From assembly GCA_003283875.1 (NCBI GenBank), contig QBXD01000009.1, forward strand, positions 1 through 41,505: 41,505 nucleotides of DNA. Direction: 5' to 3'. The stretch comes from SAR116 cluster bacterium AG-321-A13. Lineage in GTDB: Bacteria > Pseudomonadota > Alphaproteobacteria > Puniceispirillales > Marisalimonadaceae. The first letter of the stretch is position 1; each line of letters opens with the position of its first letter. Shown piece by piece: positions 13,639-41,505 of this stretch. Under the pieces are notes generated by a model, which was not told where the DNA came from, searched no databases, and worked only from the letters and a program-made list of their open reading frames with translations. The position numbers and the translations under genes were made by a program.

Positions 13639-13654
13639 CGTCCCGGGGAGCCAT
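13639..13654 (+). repeat. tRNA-Asn 3'-end direct repeat, right copy (attR-like)
   Basis: An exact 16-base copy of the tRNA-Asn 3' end including CCA, standing alone with no tRNA body. It is GC-rich in a very AT-rich background, so chance is unlikely. It marks the far end of the block that begins at tRNA-Asn. Confidence 0.75.
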
Positions 13655-27775: not shown

Positions 27776-27852
27776 TGGTCGGGCCAGCGGGATTTGAACC
27801 CACGACCTTCCGCCCCCCAGACGGACGCGCTACCAAGCTGCGCTATGGCCCG
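27776..27852 (-). tRNA. tRNA-Pro(GGG)
   Basis: Full cloverleaf on the minus strand: acceptor CGGGCCA/TGGCCCG, D-stem GCGC/GCGC, anticodon stem TCCGT/GCGGA with loop CTGGGGG (anticodon GGG), T-arm GTGGG-TTCAAAT-CCCGC, discriminator A and encoded CCA. Confidence 0.96.
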
Positions 27853-32486: not shown

Positions 32487-32647
32487 TTGAGGATCTCATA
32501 TATAATACACATAAGCCAAATATAATTGATAAGCACTCTTAACAATAAAAATAACATAACTCAGTTCTAAAGGTTAATAATTTAGATTATTAATTGTATT
32601 TAAACAAACAGATAGTACAATTTTTATATGTTTTATGGAGTTTATGT

Positions 32648-33700
32648 ATGACTAATATTGAAGAAACAAGAAAGCTACAATACAAAATTATGCAAGATAT
32701 GGCATCAGGCGCACTAATACCCATGATGAGAATTGGAGACGAGCTCAATTTGTTTAAAAATTTATTTAGGTTAGGTCCATGTACCTCAGATAAATTTAGT
32801 GCTCAAGTTAAAATGGATCAAAGATATATAAGAGAATGGTTACTTTCCTTAGCCGCTGCTGGATATATTAATTATGACAAAAAAAGTCAGGAATTTTTTC
32901 TAAGTGAGGAGCAATTTGCAGTTTTAGGAGATGAAAATAGCATTTCTCTAATGATTGGAGGTTTTGAAAATTTAGTAGGAGCAATTCATAATATAGATAT
33001 CATAAAAGACAATTTTAAAAATGGTAAAGGAACAGGTTGGGGAAATCTACATCCATGTTGTTTATCTGGATCCGCAAGATTTTTTAAGCCATCATATTCT
33101 ATTTTTTTAATTAAAAAATGGATACCTAGTCTTGATGGAGCAGACGAAATGCTTAGTAAAGGTGCTACTTTTGCAGATATTGGTTGTGGCCATGGATATT
33201 CAACCTCACTAATAGCTGAAAAATATAGTAATTCAAGAGTAATAGGAATTGATCCACATGAACCTTCAATTACAGAAGCGAAAAAAAATAATACAAATCT
33301 TAAAAATTTAGAATTTAGAGTAAATAATGCTAAGAATTATGAAGGAAAATACGACATAATTGCTTTTTTTGATTGTCTTCACGATATGGGTGATCCAATA
33401 GGAGCTATCCAATATGCAAAAACAAAACTTAATGCAAATGGAATAATTATGCTCGTCGAACCTACAGCTGATGATTTACCAGAAAATAATTTTAATTTAA
33501 TAGGACAAATGTACTATTCATTTTCTACAATTGCTTGTATTCCAGCTTCTAAATCTCAAGAAGTTGGTTTAGCACTTGGAGCTCAAGCGGGTCCAAAAAA
33601 ATTATTTTCTATATTAAATCAAGCAGGATTTAAAGATACTAAAGTAACATATAAGACTGCCTCAAATATGGTTATACAAGGGAGGTTGTTGAATAATTAA
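32648..33700 (+). CDS. class I SAM methyltransferase with winged-helix N-domain
   Basis: A ~350-residue methyltransferase. An N-terminal winged-helix dimerisation region (about 25-85; GPCTSDKFSAQVKMDQRYIREW) precedes a Rossmann methyltransferase core with motif I ADIGCGHGYST and IGIDPHEPS, then FFDCLHDMGDP. The layout resembles the Rv2258c-type and small-molecule O-methyltransferase group. The start is ATG 32648, with GGAG 7 nt upstream; an earlier ATG at 32594 has no ribosome site. The substrate is unknown. Copy 1 of the tRNA-like repeat begins 10 bp after its stop. Confidence 0.8.
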   Translation: MTNIEETRKLQYKIMQDMASGALIPMMRIGDELNLFKNLFRLGPCTSDKFSAQVKMDQRYIREWLLSLAAAGYINYDKKSQEFFLSEEQFAVLGDENSISLMIGGFENLVGAIHNIDIIKDNFKNGKGTGWGNLHPCCLSGSARFFKPSYSIFLIKKWIPSLDGADEMLSKGATFADIGCGHGYSTSLIAEKYSNSRVIGIDPHEPSITEAKKNNTNLKNLEFRVNNAKNYEGKYDIIAFFDCLHDMGDPIGAIQYAKTKLNANGIIMLVEPTADDLPENNFNLIGQMYYSFSTIACIPASKSQEVGLALGAQAGPKKLFSILNQAGFKDTKVTYKTASNMVIQGRLLNN

Positions 33701-33709
33701 TTAAGTATA

Positions 33710-33904
33710 TGGTGGAACTAACTAGGATTGAACCTGTCGTATGGCCCTGTAACCCAATGAAATAATTAATTTTATTTTTCGTACGAGTCAGCACAAGATA
33801 CCCTTTTGTCTATTTTTTAATGTCTACATTATAATTTGGATTAAAAAAACAGGTAAAATTATTTAACAAGACACTTTAAACCTGTTACGCCCTATACTCT
33901 TTTC
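33710..33904 (-). repeat. tRNA-3'-half-like intergenic repeat, copy 1
   Basis: The first of three related elements. On the minus strand it ends in CCA (33710-33712) after a T-arm-like sequence GGTTCAATCC and an anticodon-arm-like segment, with a conserved block to 33763. Inner block GATACCCTTTTGTCTATTTTTT is shared with copy 3, and the far end CCTGTTACGCCCTAT is shared with both others. It begins 10 bp after the stop of the first methyltransferase gene and fills most of the gap before the second. Confidence 0.75.
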
Positions 33905-34000
33905 ATAATCACCTAATTTATTATTAAATCTAAAATTAGTTTGCAATTTGATATTTAATTAATGAACATGTTTTTAAATACATACATAGAGAGGTTTATA

Positions 34001-34849
34001 ATGTCACCTACGATCATTAATCATGAGCAATCTGAATATTGGAATAAAAAAAATGGTCATAAGTGGGTAGATAATGATAATTCTATGAATGAAAGACTAA
34101 CTATTTTAACCAAAGCACTTTTTTTAAAAACTAATATTGAAAAGGGTGACAAAGTTTTGGATATAGGATGTGGAGGTGGACAAACATCTTTTGAAGCATC
34201 TCAGTTAGTTGGAGAAAATGGTTATGTGTTAGGAGCTGATATTTCTTACCTTTTGTTGGATTTAGCAAAAAGTAAGTATTCAAAAATAAAAAATTTAGAT
34301 TTCAAAAATTGCGATGCTGAAAACTTTGATTTTAAAAAAGATAATTTTAATAAAGTTATATCAAGATTTGGAGTTATGTTTTTTAAAAACCCTATTCACG
34401 CTTTTCAAAATATCAACAAATCAATAAAAAATGGGGGTTCTTTAAATTTTGTATGTTGGACAAATATGATGGAAAATGAATTCCATACTGCTGCAACAAA
34501 TATAATTCTTCGACACATTAATAAAGAATTTCCAAAATTAACAAGAGATCCAGGTCCTTTTGCATTTAATGACAAAGAATATATTCAAGAGATTTTAAAT
34601 AATTCTGGATTTAAAAATATTAAAGTTGAAGAGACATATACTTCAATTTCAACTGAAGATACTGCTAAAAAAGATGCTGAGCTTCTTTTGAACTTAGGTA
34701 TGGGAGCCAGATTACTAGCAGAAGAGGATTTATCAGACGATAAGCTTTTAAGTATAAAAAAAGAAATAGAAGCGATGTCTAAGAAAAGACAAAAAAATGG
34801 TAAAATAAGTTACAAGGCTTGTCTCAATTATGTTTCAGCAACTAAATGA
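34001..34849 (+). CDS. class I SAM methyltransferase
   Basis: A ~282-residue methyltransferase (UbiE/Methyltransf_11 type). Motif I is VLDIGCGGGQTSFEA, followed by ADISYLLLDLAKSKY and DFKNCDAENF; a later VISRFGVMFFKNP matches the post-II region. The start is ATG 34001 with AGAGG 8 nt upstream; an upstream ATG at 33962 seems part of the leader. Substrate unknown. It lies between copies 1 and 2 of the tRNA-like repeat in direct orientation, so it has the look of a discrete cassette; it is not closely similar to the neighbouring methyltransferase. Confidence 0.82.
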   Translation: MSPTIINHEQSEYWNKKNGHKWVDNDNSMNERLTILTKALFLKTNIEKGDKVLDIGCGGGQTSFEASQLVGENGYVLGADISYLLLDLAKSKYSKIKNLDFKNCDAENFDFKKDNFNKVISRFGVMFFKNPIHAFQNINKSIKNGGSLNFVCWTNMMENEFHTAATNIILRHINKEFPKLTRDPGPFAFNDKEYIQEILNNSGFKNIKVEETYTSISTEDTAKKDAELLLNLGMGARLLAEEDLSDDKLLSIKKEIEAMSKKRQKNGKISYKACLNYVSATK

Positions 34850-34859
34850 AAGAAAAAAA

Positions 34860-35050
34860 TGGTGGACTAAATGGGATTGAACTTGTCGTATGGCTTTGTA
34901 AGTAATTGAAATATATAGTTATATTTTTAGGTAGAAACTTTTGCAGTCTCATAAAACAATCCTTTTGTTAAATAATTTTAACTAATTATGAAACTGCAAG
35001 TCAAAATTTATTTTAACAGACTATTTCATACCTGTTACATCCTACGCATT
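34860..35050 (-). repeat. tRNA-3'-half-like intergenic repeat, copy 2
   Basis: The most diverged copy. The CCA-proximal block (34860-34912) aligns with copies 1 and 3 but lacks one acceptor base. The middle is replaced by a 14-bp stem: TTGCAGTCTCATAA (34941-34954) against TTATGAAACTGCAA (34986-34999). Its one mismatch becomes a G-U pair only in minus-strand RNA. It begins 11 bp after the stop of the second methyltransferase gene, and lies in the 3' region of the ComA-like gene on the minus strand. Confidence 0.7.
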
Positions 35051-35083
35051 ATTACTTTTAGGAATTTTGTTTAATTTAAAATA

Positions 35084-35902
35084 TCAGAATTGTCTTAATA
35101 AGTTTTCATCTCTTAATGGCTCTACTTGTAGAATCTGACTTGGCATAATATTACATACATTACAGTCTTGTCCGAATAATTTAATATAGGCAGATAGGTC
35201 TTTATGCCATTGTTTTAATCCTTCTCGAGGTGAGGTAACCTCAAAACATAGCTTCTCTAATCCCAAGTTGTTAATAACTTTATCAAAAACATTCTTAGCG
35301 TTATCATTTTGCAATTCAAACTCCTCGTGATCGAGTATAACAAAATCAGCACCATCATTTAAAAAAGGATCAGCAGTTTTTAAGATTTCTTCTGATGTAG
35401 AAGGTATATCTGGGCTTCCATGTTTCCAATTTCTTAATGGATGGTGTTCATACATAAATTTTATTGAAACTTTTTTTGCTAATTTTCTCCAATCTGACCA
35501 TTGCTTTTCAGAGATTTCACCTCCTGTATTCATAAATTCCATACTATCAAATCCAAGTGTTTTTCCATGTTCGATTGCATGTTCAACACAATTTTTTTTG
35601 TAAGCAAATTTGAAGTATGTATGGTCTAAAAAGGGTATTACATCATATTTTTTGTACAATCTTATTTTTTTATTCAACCATTCGTGAGGAGAATATAAAA
35701 CTTGTGGAGTTGTAAATTTAACATAATCAATTCTATCAGCTGCAACCTCTAAAAAATCTTCTAATTCATTTAATCCCAATCTTTCTAAATAATGAGGAGC
35801 TTCGTGAAATCCAACGTCTTTAAGCCACGTTTGTCTGATCTTTCTTGGCTTTTTAGGTAATTTAAGCCTAGGAAAAGTGTTTAAGGGGATGCTATTATCC
35901 AT
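35084..35902 (-). CDS. ComA-like protein 1 (phosphosulfolactate synthase family)
   Basis: A soluble TIM-barrel protein of 272 residues related to ComA, which in methanogens joins sulfite and phosphoenolpyruvate in coenzyme M synthesis. Family pattern: LEDFLEVAADRIDYVKFTTPQVLY (in two parts around 48-70), LGFDSMEFMNTGGEIS near 117, GADFVILDHEEFE near 185 and CFEVTSPREGLKQW near 222. Active-site surroundings differ from canonical ComA, so the sulfolactate reaction is not assured. It is divergent from the TTT transporter and has a paralogue on the far side of it. Confidence 0.68.
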   Translation of the reverse strand: MDNSIPLNTFPRLKLPKKPRKIRQTWLKDVGFHEAPHYLERLGLNELEDFLEVAADRIDYVKFTTPQVLYSPHEWLNKKIRLYKKYDVIPFLDHTYFKFAYKKNCVEHAIEHGKTLGFDSMEFMNTGGEISEKQWSDWRKLAKKVSIKFMYEHHPLRNWKHGSPDIPSTSEEILKTADPFLNDGADFVILDHEEFELQNDNAKNVFDKVINNLGLEKLCFEVTSPREGLKQWHKDLSAYIKLFGQDCNVCNIMPSQILQVEPLRDENLLRQF

Positions 35903-36037
35903 ATTAAATTTAATATATTAATTTTCTAAGTTTTTCAAATCTTATATAATTTTAAATCAATGTAATTATTTGATTTTATTATATCTAAAAACATGATTTA
36001 ATTATTTAACTTATTAATTAAAACTAAAGGAGGATTT

Positions 36038-37114
36038 ATGTTCAGGTTTTTTATACTTTTATTAGCTGGATTATTTGCATTTTCTTTCAATGCTCATGCT
36101 AAAGTTGATTTTTCAGGTAAGACTATTACTTGGGTTGTCCCTTTTAAAGAAGGTGGTGGTACCAGTAGATTTTCTAGGTTTATTGAACCATTTTTAACAA
36201 AATATCTACCAGGTAATCCTACAATTAAGATTATGCATATTCCAGGTGGTGGGGCTATCAAAGGGTCAAATTATTTTCAAAAAAATGCTAAGCCAGATGG
36301 CACATATATTTTTGGCTGCTCTACATCCGTAATTGTTAATGTGGCAACAGGTAACCCTCTAGTTAAATATAACTTAAGTTCCTACAAACCAGTACTTTTG
36401 TTACCTCAAAATACACATTGGTTTACAAGAAGCGATTTGATAGATGAAGCACACGATATTAGTAAATTACAAAAGAGAAAACTTGTTTTATATGGTTTAA
36501 AAACTCCTGCTTCGGCTGATCTATTTCATATTTGGGTTTTTGATAAAATTGGTATCAAAGGAGCTAAGCCTATACCAGGATTATCCTCGTCAGGTGCATG
36601 GCAAGCATTCCAAAGAGGAGAAATACATCTTAATTCGCAAGGCGCAGCTAAATATATAAAAAATGTTAAGCCCCAAATTGAAAAAGGGAAAATTTTAGAT
36701 ATTATGACACTTGGACTTGTTGACGCAAATGGCAATATTTCAAGAAATCCATTAGCTCCAAATGCACCTACATTTGCTGAGATGTACGAAAAAGTTAACG
36801 GTAAAAAACTATCTGGAGATGATTTAGAAGCTTTCTATTCAATTGCGGCTGCATGGTCTCAAGCATCAAAATCAATGTTATTACCCGAAAATACACCAGA
36901 CGATATTGTTAAAGTGTATAGAGATGCAGCAAAAAAAATGGTAAATGATCCAGACTTCAAAGCGAAAGCAACAAAGGTATTAGGACCATATCCTTTGACT
37001 GTTGGCGAGGAAGCTGGTGCTATTATAAAAAAGGCAGCTATTTTTTCTGACAATACAAAGAAACAGCTTAACAAGGTTTTAAAGAAACATAAATTTACTT
37101 ATAGAGTTAAGTAA
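36038..37114 (+). CDS. tctC: TTT transporter substrate-binding protein (TctC/Bug)
   Basis: Periplasmic binding protein of a tripartite tricarboxylate transporter, 358 residues. Signal peptide 1-21 (ending NAHA), then the TctC start GKTITWVVPFKEGGGTSRFSRF, MHIPGGGAIKGSNYF and KPDGTYIFG. Such proteins bind carboxylates or similar small acids. ATG 36038 has an excellent AAGGAGG site 8 nt upstream. A perfect palindrome follows it before the membrane gene, as in aapJ, consistent with high binding-protein expression. The ligand is unknown; the ComA-like neighbours hint at a sulfonate or hydroxyacid. Confidence 0.85.
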   Translation: MFRFFILLLAGLFAFSFNAHAKVDFSGKTITWVVPFKEGGGTSRFSRFIEPFLTKYLPGNPTIKIMHIPGGGAIKGSNYFQKNAKPDGTYIFGCSTSVIVNVATGNPLVKYNLSSYKPVLLLPQNTHWFTRSDLIDEAHDISKLQKRKLVLYGLKTPASADLFHIWVFDKIGIKGAKPIPGLSSSGAWQAFQRGEIHLNSQGAAKYIKNVKPQIEKGKILDIMTLGLVDANGNISRNPLAPNAPTFAEMYEKVNGKKLSGDDLEAFYSIAAAWSQASKSMLLPENTPDDIVKVYRDAAKKMVNDPDFKAKATKVLGPYPLTVGEEAGAIIKKAAIFSDNTKKQLNKVLKKHKFTYRVK

Positions 37115-37122
37115 GTTTTAAA

Positions 37123-37152
37123 AATAACTGCCGTTTATAAACGGCAGTTATT
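37123..37152 (+). promoter_or_regulatory. 30-bp perfect palindrome between tctC and tctA
   Basis: The arms AATAACTGCCGTTTA and TAAACGGCAGTTATT are exact inverted copies with no spacer. As RNA it folds to a ~13-bp hairpin 8 bp past the tctC stop and 12 bp before tctA. It probably protects or attenuates the tctC mRNA; there is no long T run. Confidence 0.8.
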
Positions 37153-37164
37153 GAATGATTTTAT

Positions 37165-39150
37165 ATGGAACAGTTTGTCTTTGCTTTTTTTCAATTATTT
37201 GAATTAACACACCTTTTATTTTTATTTGGCGGGACTTTACTTGGCCTTGTAGTTGGCATATTACCAGGTTTAGGAGGGACTTCCGGATTGGCACTTGTAT
37301 TGCCATTTGTGTATAGTCTAGAACCATCTTATGCATTAGCAATGATGATAGGTGTTTTAGCACCTACTACTACTTCAGACACATTTCCAGCAGTTTTAAT
37401 GGGGATACCAGGTACTGCTGGTTCTCAGGCGACTGTAATGGATGGCTTCCCTTTATCCAAAAAAGGAATGGCTGCAAGAGCTTTAAGTGCTGCCTTTTGT
37501 TCCTCTTTAATGGGAGGTATTTTTGGAGCATTCATATTATCTATTTCTATTTATTATGCCATACCAATTATAATGGCCTTTGGATTTGGAGAACAATTTT
37601 TACTTATTATTCTTGCCCTTCTTATGGTTGGGGCTTTAACTGGCGAAAATTTTATTAAAGGTATTACTGCGTGTATTTTAGGTTTAATTATTGGTTCTAT
37701 TGGTTCAGCTCCCATTACAGGTGATCTAAGATTTACATTTGGCACTCTTTATTTAGTTGAGGGAGTTCCAATTGTAATTGTGGGTTTAGGTTTATTTGCC
37801 TTGCCAGAAATTGTTGGACTTCTTGATTCTAAAGGAGCAATAGCAAAAGCATTGAAAAATGAAAAAGGTTGGTTTAGAGGTATCAAAGATGTTTTTAAAA
37901 ATTGGTTTCTTGTACTTCGTTGTTCTTCAATTGGTTGTATTGTTGGAGCACTACCAGGCTTAGGTGGAACAGTTGTTGATTGGATTGCATACAGTCATTT
38001 AAAACAAACATCAAAGGATACTTCAGACATAGGAAAAGGCGATATAAGAGGTGTAATAGCACCAGAATCTGCGAACAATGCTAAAGAAGGAGGTGCTTTA
38101 ATTCCTACATTGCTATTTGGTATACCTGGTTCTGGTAATAAGGTTTTACTCCTAGGTGGCTTTATTTTGATTGGTATTGAACCAGGTTTAGAAATGGTAA
38201 CCACTCACTTAGATCTCACTTACCTCATGATTTGGTCTTTGGCAATTGCTAATATACTAGGTGCTGGATTGTGCATCGGATTTGCATCACATATTTCTAA
38301 ATTAACACTGGTGAGATATTATATACTTGCACCTGTAATGATCGTTTTAATATTTTTTGCCACATTTAATATCAATAGAGATTGGTATGATTTTATTGGA
38401 TTACTTAGTTTTGGGCTAATTGGAATAACTTTTAAGGCATTTGGGTGGTCTAGACCTGCTTTGTTAATAGGTTTCTTTCTTTCTACTAAAGTTGAATTAC
38501 TTAGTTATCAGACACAAGCAGTATACGGATTAACTTTTCTTACACGACCAGTATCAATTATTCTTATAGTTTTATGTTTTGGAACTATATTATTACTTTT
38601 AAGGCAAAAATTTAAACAAAATTATAGTTCAAGTGCCTTGAAAAATAAAAAAAGTCAAATTTACTATGTATTAATTTTACTAATTTTACCGTTGTTGATG
38701 ATTTCAGTGATATCGTCTTTGGATTATAGGGCAAGTTTATATCCTATAAGTCTGTGTTTTATTTCAATAATACTTTTGATGGTTATATTTTTTGTAAAGA
38801 TTATTGATTATAATAAACATCATTTATTAAAATATTCGATTGTTAAATTTGTTAATATAAATATTTATGAACAAAATAGTGGTTTTAATAATCAATTTTT
38901 CTATTACTTAAGCTTTATAGGTTACTTAATAATGAATTTTATTGTAGGGTTTCCAATAGCATCTGTTATTTTTATTAATACTTTTATTATTTTTCATGAT
39001 AAGCGAGATTATAAAATCTCAATTATAATTTCTTTTGTGTTATTAGTAGTACTTTGGTTTCTATCGCATATGTTGACACTCCAATTTCCTAATGGTCTAA
39101 TTGGTTCGTTGATAGATACGCCATGGTGGTTAGGTGGTGAATTAAACTAA
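37165..39150 (+). CDS. tctA: TTT transporter membrane subunit, TctA-TctB fusion
   Basis: The large membrane subunit, 661 residues. Residues 1 to ~490 are TctA, with both signature repeats: GILPGLGGTSGLALVLPF near 31 and GALPGLGGTVVDWIAYSH near 262, then GVIAPESANNAKEGGALIPT and GIPGSGN. After a hydrophilic linker (~485-497, Ser/Lys-rich) there are four or five more helices (about 498-661) that fit the size and pattern of the small subunit TctB, which is otherwise missing. TctA alone is about 500 residues, so this is a fusion. ATG 37165, 50 bp after tctC. Confidence 0.87.
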   Translation: MEQFVFAFFQLFELTHLLFLFGGTLLGLVVGILPGLGGTSGLALVLPFVYSLEPSYALAMMIGVLAPTTTSDTFPAVLMGIPGTAGSQATVMDGFPLSKKGMAARALSAAFCSSLMGGIFGAFILSISIYYAIPIIMAFGFGEQFLLIILALLMVGALTGENFIKGITACILGLIIGSIGSAPITGDLRFTFGTLYLVEGVPIVIVGLGLFALPEIVGLLDSKGAIAKALKNEKGWFRGIKDVFKNWFLVLRCSSIGCIVGALPGLGGTVVDWIAYSHLKQTSKDTSDIGKGDIRGVIAPESANNAKEGGALIPTLLFGIPGSGNKVLLLGGFILIGIEPGLEMVTTHLDLTYLMIWSLAIANILGAGLCIGFASHISKLTLVRYYILAPVMIVLIFFATFNINRDWYDFIGLLSFGLIGITFKAFGWSRPALLIGFFLSTKVELLSYQTQAVYGLTFLTRPVSIILIVLCFGTILLLLRQKFKQNYSSSALKNKKSQIYYVLILLILPLLMISVISSLDYRASLYPISLCFISIILLMVIFFVKIIDYNKHHLLKYSIVKFVNINIYEQNSGFNNQFFYYLSFIGYLIMNFIVGFPIASVIFINTFIIFHDKRDYKISIIISFVLLVVLWFLSHMLTLQFPNGLIGSLIDTPWWLGGELN

Positions 39151-39166
39151 AATTTAAAGGAATATT

Positions 39167-39961
39167 ATGTCCAAAAAACCATTTCCTTATCTTCCATTTA
39201 TTAAAAGAGATAAAAAACCCAGAGAAACAGGTATTAATTATGTGAGATCACCTGTGTTGGTAGGTAGAACCATAGAAGACTATCTTGAAGCATATGGGGA
39301 CATGATTGACATATTAAAACTTTCAGGAAAACAAGCGGCTCAAATTAATGAAAAATCTTTAATTGATTACATTACTACATGTAAAAAATTCAATGTTATG
39401 GTTTCTATTGGTAATCCTGTCATGGACGTTGCTTTAATGGCTGGTAGAAAAGTAGTTGATGATTATATAAATAAATGTGAAGACTTAGGTGTTGATATAA
39501 TTGAAATATCGAGTATTGCGCGTTCAATTGATGATGACGATGTTTGTACAATAATTGAAAAAGTTTCTAACAAAGGTATTAAAGTTCTCAATGAAATCGG
39601 TGTGGCTTTTGCCCACTCTGAAGTAAATGATGAATCTATCTTTATACAAAGGTTAATTAATCAATCAAAAAAGTTCCTAAATGCAGGCTCATGGAAAATC
39701 TTATTAGAATCCGAAGGCTTAACAGAAAATATGAACAAAGAAAATCATAGATGGAATATTGTTGATAGGATTATTAGTCCTTTAAAATTATCACAATTTA
39801 TGGTTGAAGCAGATGATCAAGATGTCTTTTGCAAGTATATAGAAATTTATGGCCCAAATATTAATATGATGATCGACTATTCACGTCTCTTGAAAATGGA
39901 AGATGCGAGAATTGGCTATGGTCCCTCGCAATTCCTTTGGGGGAAAGTCGTAAAATATTAA
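39167..39961 (+). CDS. ComA-like protein 2 (phosphosulfolactate synthase family)
   Basis: A 264-residue ComA-fold protein, clearly different from ComA-like protein 1. Landmarks: DYLEAYGDMIDILKLSGKQA, LGVDIIEISSIARSIDDDD near 105, GIKVLNEIGVAF near 135, and AGSWKILLESEGLTEN near 170, which follows the ComA motif around the catalytic Lys (AGAxKVIIEAREsG-like). Thus it keeps more of the canonical active site than protein 1. It starts 16 bp after the tctA-tctB fusion with an AAAGGA site and shares its transcript. The likely substrate is the transported acid. Confidence 0.68.
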   Translation: MSKKPFPYLPFIKRDKKPRETGINYVRSPVLVGRTIEDYLEAYGDMIDILKLSGKQAAQINEKSLIDYITTCKKFNVMVSIGNPVMDVALMAGRKVVDDYINKCEDLGVDIIEISSIARSIDDDDVCTIIEKVSNKGIKVLNEIGVAFAHSEVNDESIFIQRLINQSKKFLNAGSWKILLESEGLTENMNKENHRWNIVDRIISPLKLSQFMVEADDQDVFCKYIEIYGPNINMMIDYSRLLKMEDARIGYGPSQFLWGKVVKY

Positions 39962-40023
39962 ATCAATTTAAATACTTTAATTAGTTCGTGTTAAATTTTA
40001 AAGGTATTTTATTTTGGTAGAAA

Positions 40024-40224
40024 TGGTGGGACTAACTGGGATTGAACCTGTCGTTTGGCTCTGTAAACCATTGAAATCATAAAGTTTATTTTTTATACTA
40101 GACAGCACTAGATACCCTTTTGTCTATTTTTTTACTGTCAAGATAATGATGTAGTTTTACTAGACAGGTCAAATTGTTTTACTAGCCACTTTAGACCTGT
40201 TACACCCTATGCCTTACGTCTTTT
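40024..40224 (-). repeat. tRNA-3'-half-like intergenic repeat, copy 3
   Basis: The best-preserved copy. On the minus strand it ends ACAGG-TTCAATC-CCAGT-TAGTCCC-A-CCA (T-arm, acceptor 3' strand, discriminator, CCA at 40024-40026), preceded by an anticodon-arm-like TGGT-TTACAGA-GCCA. The T-stem has one A-A mismatch and no 5' half follows the tRNA rules, so it is not a working tRNA. ACAGGTC and GACCTGT form a hairpin further upstream. A minus-strand promoter lies at 40291-40319. Confidence 0.75.
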
Positions 40225-40284
40225 AGCCATCTTGTTTGTTTTAATCTTTTTAACCATCTTAGGTTTTTTCTTCTTTAGTTTCAT
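40207..40284 (-). CDS. possible 25-residue basic peptide
   Basis: A short open frame at the 5' end of the copy-3 transcript starting with ATG at 40284. The product is very basic (14 Lys/Arg in 25 residues: MKLKKKKPKMVKK then IKTNKMAKRRKA). It has no ribosome-binding site; the predicted transcription start is at or within a base or two of its ATG, so translation would be leaderless. The matching region in copies 1 and 2 has only very short frames (KRV and MRRM before a stop), so it may be simply AT-rich RNA read by chance. Confidence 0.2.
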   Translation of the reverse strand: MKLKKKKPKMVKKIKTNKMAKRRKA

Positions 40285-40290
40285 AAATAT

Positions 40291-40319
40291 ATTATATTAA
40301 CTTATATAATATTACTCAA
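40291..40319 (-). promoter_or_regulatory. sigma70-like promoter reading into repeat copy 3
   Basis: On the minus strand TTGAGT (40314-40319) and TATAAT (40291-40296) are spaced exactly 17 bp. Transcription would start near 40284 and produce about 260 nt up to the CCA of copy 3. In an AT-rich genome a TATAAT alone is cheap, but the pair with perfect spacing is noteworthy. It lies just past the stop of the 109-residue gene. Confidence 0.45.
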
Positions 40320-40332
40320 AAGTGTAGCTATA

Positions 40333-40662
40333 TTACATCTCAGAATTAACTGTAATTTCAGCTGATATTGGCTCTGACTCATAATTGTAAACAAAAACAC
40401 CCGAGTATTGATTTTCTTTGAATGTAAATGACGCTTTTAAATCTTTAAAAATTGATGTAGCGTCTTTATCAAATTTATTTAAGTCAGCACCAGTTTGAAA
40501 TCTAATACTTATTGATAAACTACCACATGAGCCAATAGAAATATTTAGCGATCTAATATTGTATTGAGAAATTCTTTTGCCCAGATTATCGGAACAAAAA
40601 GAAGAAGCAACCTTAGCTTCAGATACACCAGAAAACTTTAAATTATATATTTTTGCAAACAT
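40333..40662 (-). CDS. small protein of unknown function, partner of the GAF protein
   Basis: A soluble 109-residue protein with no recognised motif. The pattern of short alternating strands (SLNISIGSCGSLSISIRF, GVFVYNYESEPISAEITV) suggests a beta-rich fold. It begins with ATG directly after the stop of the GAF gene (TAAATG), so the two are translated together and probably act together. Nothing in the sequence gives a function. Confidence 0.65.
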   Translation of the reverse strand: MFAKIYNLKFSGVSEAKVASSFCSDNLGKRISQYNIRSLNISIGSCGSLSISIRFQTGADLNKFDKDATSIFKDLKASFTFKENQYSGVFVYNYESEPISAEITVNSEM

Positions 40663-41484
40663 TTAGTTAATCTCAGATAATAATTCTTCAATTTTATTAT
40701 CAGCTTCATGACCTTTAATTTTGATTTTTTTCATATTTTTTGGTTTAAGCTCCATATCTTCTAATAGTTTTCTTCCAAAATGAGATAAAACAAAGGAACT
40801 ATTTGTGTTTTTTTCACATAAATTATATTTCAATAAATTAGAAGCATTGATTTCTAAAATATCAAGGTTTGCTGCCAAAGATAAAAATGCCTCAAGATCA
40901 CTAATTGTAAAACCTAGAAATTTTTGTTTAAAAATATTTATTATTTCTAGAACTTTATTTGATGTAAGTTCCTTTTGCTCAATATGTAAGTCAAGTAGAT
41001 GAGCCATATTTGAAGTGATCTTTTTTACCAACTCTATTTGTTTTTGAGATAATTCTCTGGGCTTGGGATGTTTCATACATAATGTCCCTAAGGCATAATT
41101 ATCTCTATTTATTACAGGAAAACCAGCATATCCTAGCGTTGTTGTTGTGCCATCTAAGATTTTTGGATGATTCTTCCAGATAGGATCCTTTCTAAGGTCA
41201 GGCATTAAAAGTGGTTCGACGTCAAGCAACACGTAAGCACAAATATTATTTACACCCTTGTCACTTATTGATCCCGAAACAAATTCATCTCTACCTGATG
41301 AAGAAATACTACATTGATTATTTCCGTCAAACAGGCTGAATGTAGCGCTTTGAAATCCAGTCAAATCTTTAGCTAGATCGCAGTAAACTAGAAACATCTC
41401 TGAGTTAGGAGAGTCAATTAATCCAGTTTTTATGACGGTTTTAACCCTTTCATTTTCGTTAAATGGTACTGGAGCAAGTTCCAT
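40663..41484 (-). CDS. GAF-domain protein
   Basis: A 273-residue soluble protein with an N-terminal GAF domain (about 15-165; marks FSLFDGNNQCSISSSG, LMPDLRKDPIWKNHP, LGYAGFPVINRDNYALGTLC) as in redox- or ligand-sensing proteins. The rest (~170-273) is helical and charged without an output domain I recognise: no kinase, GGDEF or HTH. The start is ATG 41484 with AAAGGTG about 8 nt upstream; a TTG five codons earlier overlaps that site. The only evident partner is the 109-residue protein that follows. A role as a small sensor is inferred. Confidence 0.8.
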   Translation of the reverse strand: MELAPVPFNENERVKTVIKTGLIDSPNSEMFLVYCDLAKDLTGFQSATFSLFDGNNQCSISSSGRDEFVSGSISDKGVNNICAYVLLDVEPLLMPDLRKDPIWKNHPKILDGTTTTLGYAGFPVINRDNYALGTLCMKHPKPRELSQKQIELVKKITSNMAHLLDLHIEQKELTSNKVLEIINIFKQKFLGFTISDLEAFLSLAANLDILEINASNLLKYNLCEKNTNSSFVLSHFGRKLLEDMELKPKNMKKIKIKGHEADNKIEELLSEIN

Positions 41485-41505
41485 AAAAACACCTTTCAAA
41501 TAAGT

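Follow-up and report, generated by a model that had tools for sequence, protein, structure and literature searches.

Repeats between gene cassettes of a SAR116 bacterium as probable tRNA-Val attachment junctions of a phage-type integrase

Islands made of cassettes set off by repeats of a tRNA end are known in Actinomarinales (PMC7771536) and, as the flexible genomic island fGI-2, in Methylopumilus (PMC10872708); what is said here of these and of other cited papers refers to the portions of text consulted. We analysed a locus of SAR116 cluster bacterium AG-321-A13 in which three repeats of about 195 nt punctuate a series of metabolic genes. The stretch of DNA under study, hereafter the window, is the whole contig QBXD01000009.1, 41,505 nt in length. 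The repeats are, with high probability, attR sites, the distal junctions of site-specific integration into tRNA-Val(GAC), each composed of the P arm of a phage and the displaced 3' end of the tRNA gene. The locus exhibits the variable cassettes at a conserved tRNA, and the tRNA-end repeats, by which additive flexible genomic islands are recognised, but differs from those described (PMC7771536, PMC10872708) because the phage arm has been retained, and the repeat measures ~195 nt. As the arm is kept, both family and subtype of the recombinase can be read from each scar; in the text consulted on the earlier cassettes the recombinase is not named.

Phages have been assigned to SAR116 on the basis of their integrase and of an attP that corresponds to a host tRNA (group G16, PMC3861242). 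The phages considered below are similarly linked to SAR116 by integrase and attP, a likeness that does not establish their identity with G16; moreover, that paper describes phages, whereas the arrays of cargo reported here are phage-free. Tycheposons, VEIMEs and PICMIs (PMC11389934, PMC10803314, PMC10872708) are likewise site-specific chromosomal elements of marine bacteria, associated with tRNAs in the case of tycheposons, and have been proposed to be phage satellites. Satellites are said to need self-encoded integrases (PMC10803314), unlike the units of the window, in which no integrase was found, none of the eight array proteins scanned being a tyrosine integrase. Compared with tycheposons as described in PMC10872708, the tRNA border is present, and the tyrosine recombinase was not found in the window units. 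Closer in organization are the CALIN arrays of integrons (PMC11389934), which are cassette arrays provided with recombination sites, devoid of an integrase and moved in trans; they use, however, attC sites, and not tRNA/phage attachment junctions. Integration without stable lysogeny has been reported for marine T7-like cyanophages (PMC8776855). A literature search that covered few subscription journals retrieved no account of phage arms in SAR116 arrays.

Composition of the repeats and phage attachment sites

The three repeats lie in one orientation at 33709-33904, 34859-35057 and 40023-40222 (copies 1, 2 and 3; Table 1), and their likeness is far above chance. Local alignment scores are 203 for copies 1-3, 69 for copies 1-2 and 80 for copies 2-3, against maxima of 28, 36 and 27, respectively, in 500 shuffles of two-base blocks per pair, and a BLASTN search of the genome of the strain with copy 1 retrieved copy 3 (E=9.0e-47) and copy 2 (E=1.4e-10). 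The initial annotation, made on the letters of the window, had correctly described number and orientation of the elements, the distal GTAACAGG block common to all three, the inner block common to copies 1 and 3 and missing in copy 2, and the start of copies 1 and 2 about 10 nt past a stop codon (9-10 nt as measured here); copy 3 begins 62 nt after a stop codon. Read on the minus strand, each copy is a recombination arm of ~150-170 nt fused to the last 24-25 nt of tRNA-Val(GAC). Of the half tRNA initially perceived, the final 24-25 nt (T-loop, 3' T-stem, 3' acceptor strand and CCA) stand, and correspond to tRNA-Val(GAC); the claimed anticodon arm and 5' T-stem belong to the recombination arm, which explains why the T-stem mismatch is found in all copies. 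The initial annotation was right in holding that the elements are neither tRNAs nor products of simple tRNA decay.

In the labels used below G000 is the genome of the strain, other G numbers are relatives, and the window is contig C9 of G000; L numbers denote individual loci and contigs, including phage contigs. The intact tRNA-Val(GAC) of the strain resides near the end of contig C1 (G000:C1:342-416), and just downstream lies a left arm with TGTCTTGTAAGTGTCTTGT, featuring a two-octamer pattern (G000:C1:164-182). Left arms were found also downstream of tRNA-Lys(TTT) in four relatives (G029, G031, G034, G035) and, in G035:C8, downstream of a partial tRNA-Val copy; partial left arms occur at the tRNA-Lys of G013, G017 and G021. 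The left-arm pattern AAGTGTCTWGTAAGTGTCTWGTA is present in 13 IMG/VR contigs of uncultured phages, and in 12 of them the right arm, equivalent to the window repeat, is joined directly to a tRNA 3' end, and this in turn to the left arm. The tRNA end is that of tRNA-Val in seven contigs and of tRNA-Lys in four, and is tRNA-Pro-like in one (L140); none was recognised in L132, the thirteenth contig carrying the pattern. An integrase gene follows the left arm in 10/13 contigs, and in the other three (L135, L137, L141) the available sequence stops <600 nt from the left-arm octamers. The L138 protein matches PF00589 at 4.6e-14, and is a tyrosine integrase; the domain was detected in all 15 aligned members at E <= 0.1, and R, HxxR, H and Y, the catalytic invariant residues of tyrosine integrases, are present.

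In the 13 contigs attP makes up 5,109 nt and holds 76 occurrences of the octamer TGTCTWGT, against 6 on the same strand in the remaining 100,350 nt; 26 of the 76 are due to selection, since contigs had been found via two octamers each. In the phages a small lysine-rich gene, present in two versions, has its stop codon where the right arm starts, and copy 3 keeps a 25-codon remnant of this gene. The sites of the window share core, arm repeats and their order with the attP of the L138 integrase family. Six left arms were found by pattern, and in three (G000, G034:C46, G035:C17) the homology to phages stops at one landmark, ...TTTTTTTAC.TG, sitting just before an operator-like palindrome of the phages, and because of this common end the arm looks like a module. 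That the repeats are attR junctions formed by a phage-type tyrosine integrase at tRNA-Val is the best supported part of the mechanism discussed in this work.

In a tblastn search of known phages with the integrase, only integrases of <60% identity were retrieved (85 records), two proteins of the structural region gave one weak match and none, respectively, and none of 50,697 phage records matched attP. The left arms of L138, L139, L153 and L161 each carry, between tRNA end and octamers, one of three interchangeable ~55-nt modules with short internal repeats, which are perhaps excisionase binding sites. One of the six genome-contig matches of the left-arm pattern, L148, from a Lake Baikal Pedosphaera metagenome-assembled genome, has no tRNA within the 8 kb examined, and looks unrelated.

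Arm types and integrase subtypes

Integrases are encoded by 18 contigs (16 plus L132 and L140). Leaving out the fragment L163, 17 were examined; attP was not seen in two (L156, L157), and 15 contigs were compared. Integrase N-terminus and arm type are fully concordant in 14, and one is mosaic. N-termini with YYYL (five contigs) are associated with TGTCTTGT at octamer sites (T arms), VYY N-termini (four contigs) with TGTCTAGT at octamer sites (A arms), and the YYATVNGRR N-terminus (five contigs) with GTCTGTAA-type repeats (third type). Visual grouping of the aligned catalytic parts agrees in turn with the tRNA end (Val 6/6, Lys 7/7). T arms occur together with catalytic parts of the Val, Lys and unassigned groups, A arms with those of the Val and Pro-like groups, and the third type with those of the Val and Lys groups. 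Since arm types mix with several catalytic parts, the link between N-terminus and arm is not just a matter of descent, though the contigs are related. The N-terminus is predicted to form a three-stranded sheet plus a helix (whole model: mean predicted local distance difference test score, pLDDT, 77; predicted template modelling score, pTM, 0.49), like the arm-binding domains of lambda and Tn916 integrases.

When scored against 10 phage right arms, copy 1 proved closest to L138 (T arms; 238, best A arm 183), copy 2 to L153 (third type; 255, next 91), and copy 3 to L137 (A arms; 298, best T arm 247). As the copies match three phage subtypes, and the integrase N-terminus tracks the arm type, at least three integrations must have taken place at one tRNA-Val. 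The presence of the inner block in copies 1 and 3, and not in copy 2, is accounted for by three integrase subtypes having hit the same tRNA.

Cassette arrays at tRNA-Val

The search for copies in relatives suggested by the initial annotation was positive. At E <= 0.01 a sequence-only model, built from 15 copies, three of them from the window, matched 25 sites, distributed over 19 of the 40 genomes of the genus. Twenty matches, in 14 genomes, are found at E <= 1e-8, 15 of these being the copies that built the model; five weak matches (E 7e-4 to 0.008) were left uninterpreted. Order-wide, E <= 1e-4 was reached in 15 of 136 genomes, 14 belonging to the same genus and one, with a weak match (5e-7), to another genus of the family. 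An earlier tally of 30/61 genomes was not used as element count, since in 32 of the 52 rows that make it up only the tRNA end is matched.

Reading away from tRNA-Val, the array includes the fam31 methyltransferase, an arm and fam5 in G031; a ComA-TctC-TctA-ComA unit, an arm and fam5 in G034; a ComA-Tct unit, an arm, fam80, an arm and fam5 in G001; fam40, an arm and fam5 in G021. In the window, copy 3 is followed by the ComA-Tct unit, copy 2, fam31, copy 1 and fam5, in this order. In G004, G009, G012 and G023 fam5 directly adjoins the intact tRNA-Val. The arrays fit insertion at the intact tRNA with displacement of the older tRNA ends, without proving the order. Fam5 had been taken as the ancestral flank; in G023, however, the fam5-fam6 block has itself an arm behind, and may be older cargo, and fam5 is therefore claimed only to lie behind the farthest scar. 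At tandem junctions the left-arm homology runs on past the displaced tRNA end in G009, G034:C42, G001 and G035:C17. A block of six families (fam43-42-87-86-85-41) follows an arm with the Val end in G023, and tRNA-Lys in G021; in G035:C17 the ComA-Tct variant is flanked on one side by tRNA-Lys and its left arm, and on the other by an arm with the Val end, which is a rearrangement. Pairs of the attL/attR type, with the intact tRNA at one end and the displaced 3' end at the other in the same orientation, are found on one contig in congeners, and across two contigs in the strain under study.

In the 11 congeners with both genes on one contig, tRNA-Val(GAC) and tRNA-Pro(GGG) are about 3 to 14 kb apart. 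The blocks between scars contain metabolic genes, and no phage genes; blocks of this kind are met again in congeners, at different places in the array and bordered by different arm subtypes. The methyltransferase noted between copies 1 and 2 is a SAM (S-adenosylmethionine)-dependent enzyme (fam31), and the ComA and Tct gene cluster noted between copies 2 and 3 spans 35084..39961; both are cargo units, and of the options initially offered for the repeats the cassette junction is the right one.

Table 1. Features of the tRNA-Val to tRNA-Pro interval in the window
Feature	Position	Strand	Remarks
tRNA-Pro(GGG), far border of the variable interval	27776..27852	-	
Methyltransferase fam5, flank behind the farthest scar	32594..33700	+	family directly beside intact tRNA-Val in 4 congeners
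Displaced tRNA-Val(GAC) 3' end, copy 1	33710..33734	-	2 substitutions vs intact gene
Right-end (P) arm, copy 1	33735..33904	-	TGTCTTGT subtype; best phage match L138, 90% over 193 nt
SAM-dependent methyltransferase fam31, cargo unit between copies 2 and 1	33962..34849	+	
Displaced tRNA-Val 3' end, copy 2	34860..34883	-	2 substitutions and 1-nt deletion
Right-end arm, copy 2	34884..35055	-	third (GTCTGTAA-like) subtype; best phage match L153, 92% over 192 nt
ComA-like, cargo unit between copies 3 and 2	35084-35902	-	
TctC-like, cargo unit between copies 3 and 2	36038-37114		assigned by context; no Pfam match
TctA, cargo unit between copies 3 and 2	37165-39150		
Second ComA-like, cargo unit between copies 3 and 2	39167-39961		
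Displaced tRNA-Val 3' end, copy 3	40024..40048	-	25/25 identical to intact gene
Right-end arm, copy 3	40049..40222	-	TGTCTAGT subtype; best phage match L137, 91% over 281 nt with flanks
25-codon remnant of the small lysine-rich gene ending inside the arm in phages	40207..40284	-	
Part of next cargo unit tRNA-ward (109-aa protein, GAF-domain protein)	40333..41505	-	cut by contig end

The TctC-like/TctA transporter pair found in the larger unit (35084-39961) between two ComA-family proteins may, to judge from the encoded proteins, be part of a sulfonate-type catabolic cluster. A perfect 30-nt inverted repeat (37123-37152), set between TctC-like and TctA and showing weak likeness to two small RNA families, is perhaps a partial terminator or mRNA processing site. 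In G010:C19 (L126 6250-6700) octamer repeats lie ahead of nt 28-77 of tRNA-Pro(GGG), an arrangement shared with phage contig L140, and tRNA-Pro(GGG), the far border of the same interval, is a possible third target. In another part of the window, the last ~16 nt of tRNA-Asn(GTT) (1426-1500) recur in the same orientation 12 kb downstream, at 13639-13654, and two GTTACCCT repeats follow the gene at about 1555-1580; this is probably another tRNA integration scar, left by a different integrase.

Proposed mobilization in trans and competing explanations

Most likely, though this is less sure than the nature of the attR junctions, the units moved as integrase-less passengers, mobilized in trans by a phage integrase. 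A unit would carry only a phage-type attachment module and its cargo, and the infecting phage would supply the integrase. Each new unit would insert at the intact tRNA and push older units away, the order from the tRNA would be the order of arrival reversed, and loss of the left arm would then fix the unit in place. A broader scenario is offered tentatively, as it may well not hold. SAR116-type bacteria could host an integron-like cassette system run by viruses, in which cargo equipped with only a phage attachment module would be added stepwise at tRNA-Val or tRNA-Lys by the integrase of infecting phages, and the helper could be changed by swapping the arm subtype while the cargo is kept; the phage family involved is not seen as prophage.

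The relationship between cargo and arms was analysed by scoring 19 host right arms, leaving out G032, G078 and the five weak model matches. In G034 the ComA-Tct cargo is bordered by T arms and in G001 by A arms (130, as against 110 for T); the arms of window copy 2 and of G020, with the same cargo, are of the third type. A ComA-Tct variant with one gene more, whose distal ComA is only 49-51% identical, has A arms in G013 and G035. Fam31 is found with T arms in window copy 1 and G031, and with third-type arms in G017; fam40 with A arms in G021 (80 vs 65 only) and T arms in G035:C8 (118 vs 84). The cargo flank is alike up to the arm start both in ComA-Tct (window, G034, G020, G001) and in fam31 units. 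Such data could also reflect swapping of cargo by homologous recombination, tRNA-Val and the conserved arm serving as homology anchors, and the integrase being required only for the first insertions. This explanation, which we hold to be rather unlikely, fits the finding that fam31 and ComA-Tct units keep the cargo flank while the rest of the arm changes subtype. It also fits the identity of fam31, far above that of the locus core, which counts in favor of the passenger reading as well: 94% between G000 and G017, where five core families range from 56 to 79%, and 94% between G031 and G017, where the single comparable core family is at 75%; the left arm is missing in all three genomes. The anchors, however, are short, and the first insertions, the left arms at tRNA-Lys in four genomes and the nested tRNA ends would be left unexplained.

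Alternatively, phages may have integrated and their genomes been deleted, the host genes having come later or having been carried by the phage near the attachment site, and the repeats would be remains of decayed prophages. We regard this as unlikely. Phage sequence of 60-118 nt upstream of the arm is kept in copy 3, G029 and G035:C8, and the phages may be temperate, as they have an integrase and a helix-turn-helix protein, the latter below the Pfam cut-off. Yet, the phage integrase family was found in 0/40 genomes of the genus and 0/136 of the order, an absence seen only in assemblies of mixed completeness (43 of the 136 are >= 90% complete and <= 5% contaminated); as positive control, the search with a close homologue as query recovered members as low as 38% in identity, from three phage records. 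In addition, among 509 open reading frames of >= 80 aa from 49 partly overlapping host loci, window included, only three match phage reading frames at E <= 1e-5, and all three span attachment sites; closely similar cargo, as reported above, bears different arm subtypes.

The resident fam8 tyrosine integrase (316-323 aa) was our first candidate. It also uses tRNA-Val(GAC), nine fam8 genes being located beside tRNA-Val genes or fragments in congeners and in the strain itself (L036 14356-15459, L037, L039, L040, L041, L042, L047, L048, L068), and its flank shares the GACTTAGC motif with the phage left arm; in some genomes, that of the strain included, two tRNA-Val copies bracket the fam8 island. 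Fam8 arms, however, carry TGTCAC and not TGTCTWGT repeats, and the partial tRNA-Val copies of its islands extend from nt 8-11 to 75, or from nt 1 to 53-65, and do not correspond to the last 25 nt. As arm repeats and tRNA fragments differ, fam8 was dropped, and it is very improbable that it made the junctions. Still harder to credit is the small RNA option of the initial annotation, a minus-strand family with a tRNA-like 3' end. The CCA end and the conserved block would suit it, but no Rfam family reaches the gathering score in the elements, a permissive scan of 33600-40400 found nothing within them, RNAalifold returned 0 pairs on 15 copies, and the sequence is accounted for by the phage attP. 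The other early option, a miniature inverted-repeat transposable element, is disfavored because the repeats end at the tRNA 3' end, sit in tRNA-anchored arrays in congeners, and are one half of a phage attP found beside a tyrosine integrase.

Several observations weigh against the transfer of passengers by phage integrases as favored here, besides the mixed completeness of the assemblies. Contact between contigs C1 and C9 in the strain is inferred from contig ends. Val units with ComA-Tct or fam31 next to the tRNA or to a displaced tRNA end have no left arm, and are therefore not canonical attL/attR pairs at present; left-arm homology ends before the common landmark in G029, G031 and G035:C8. 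Right junctions are ragged, with phage sequence of differing length at copy 3, G029 and G035:C8, as decayed prophages would also leave. The mosaic L159 combines N-terminus and right arm of the third type with a TGTCTAGT left arm. Among close relatives ComA-Tct cargo and core are about equally identical, and this comparison alone is therefore no proof of transfer. Using one ComA-like protein and fam31 as queries, pattern-limited searches of IMG/VR found no relatives, and no unit in a virus contig was retrieved with these two cargo queries.

If the repeats are read as attR junctions, the integrase subtype responsible can be told from each scar, and the order of arrival is suggested by its position. 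An uncultured phage family is linked in this way to SAR116-type hosts, and to the acquisition by ocean bacteria, through horizontal transfer, of transporters, methyltransferases and ComA-like enzymes. Phages and arrays together represent a natural data set on arm specificity, in which the N-terminal domain can be set against the octamer repeats, and on core specificity, in which the catalytic part can be set against the tRNA. The notion that metabolic genes may travel with nothing but the attachment site of a virus becomes testable.

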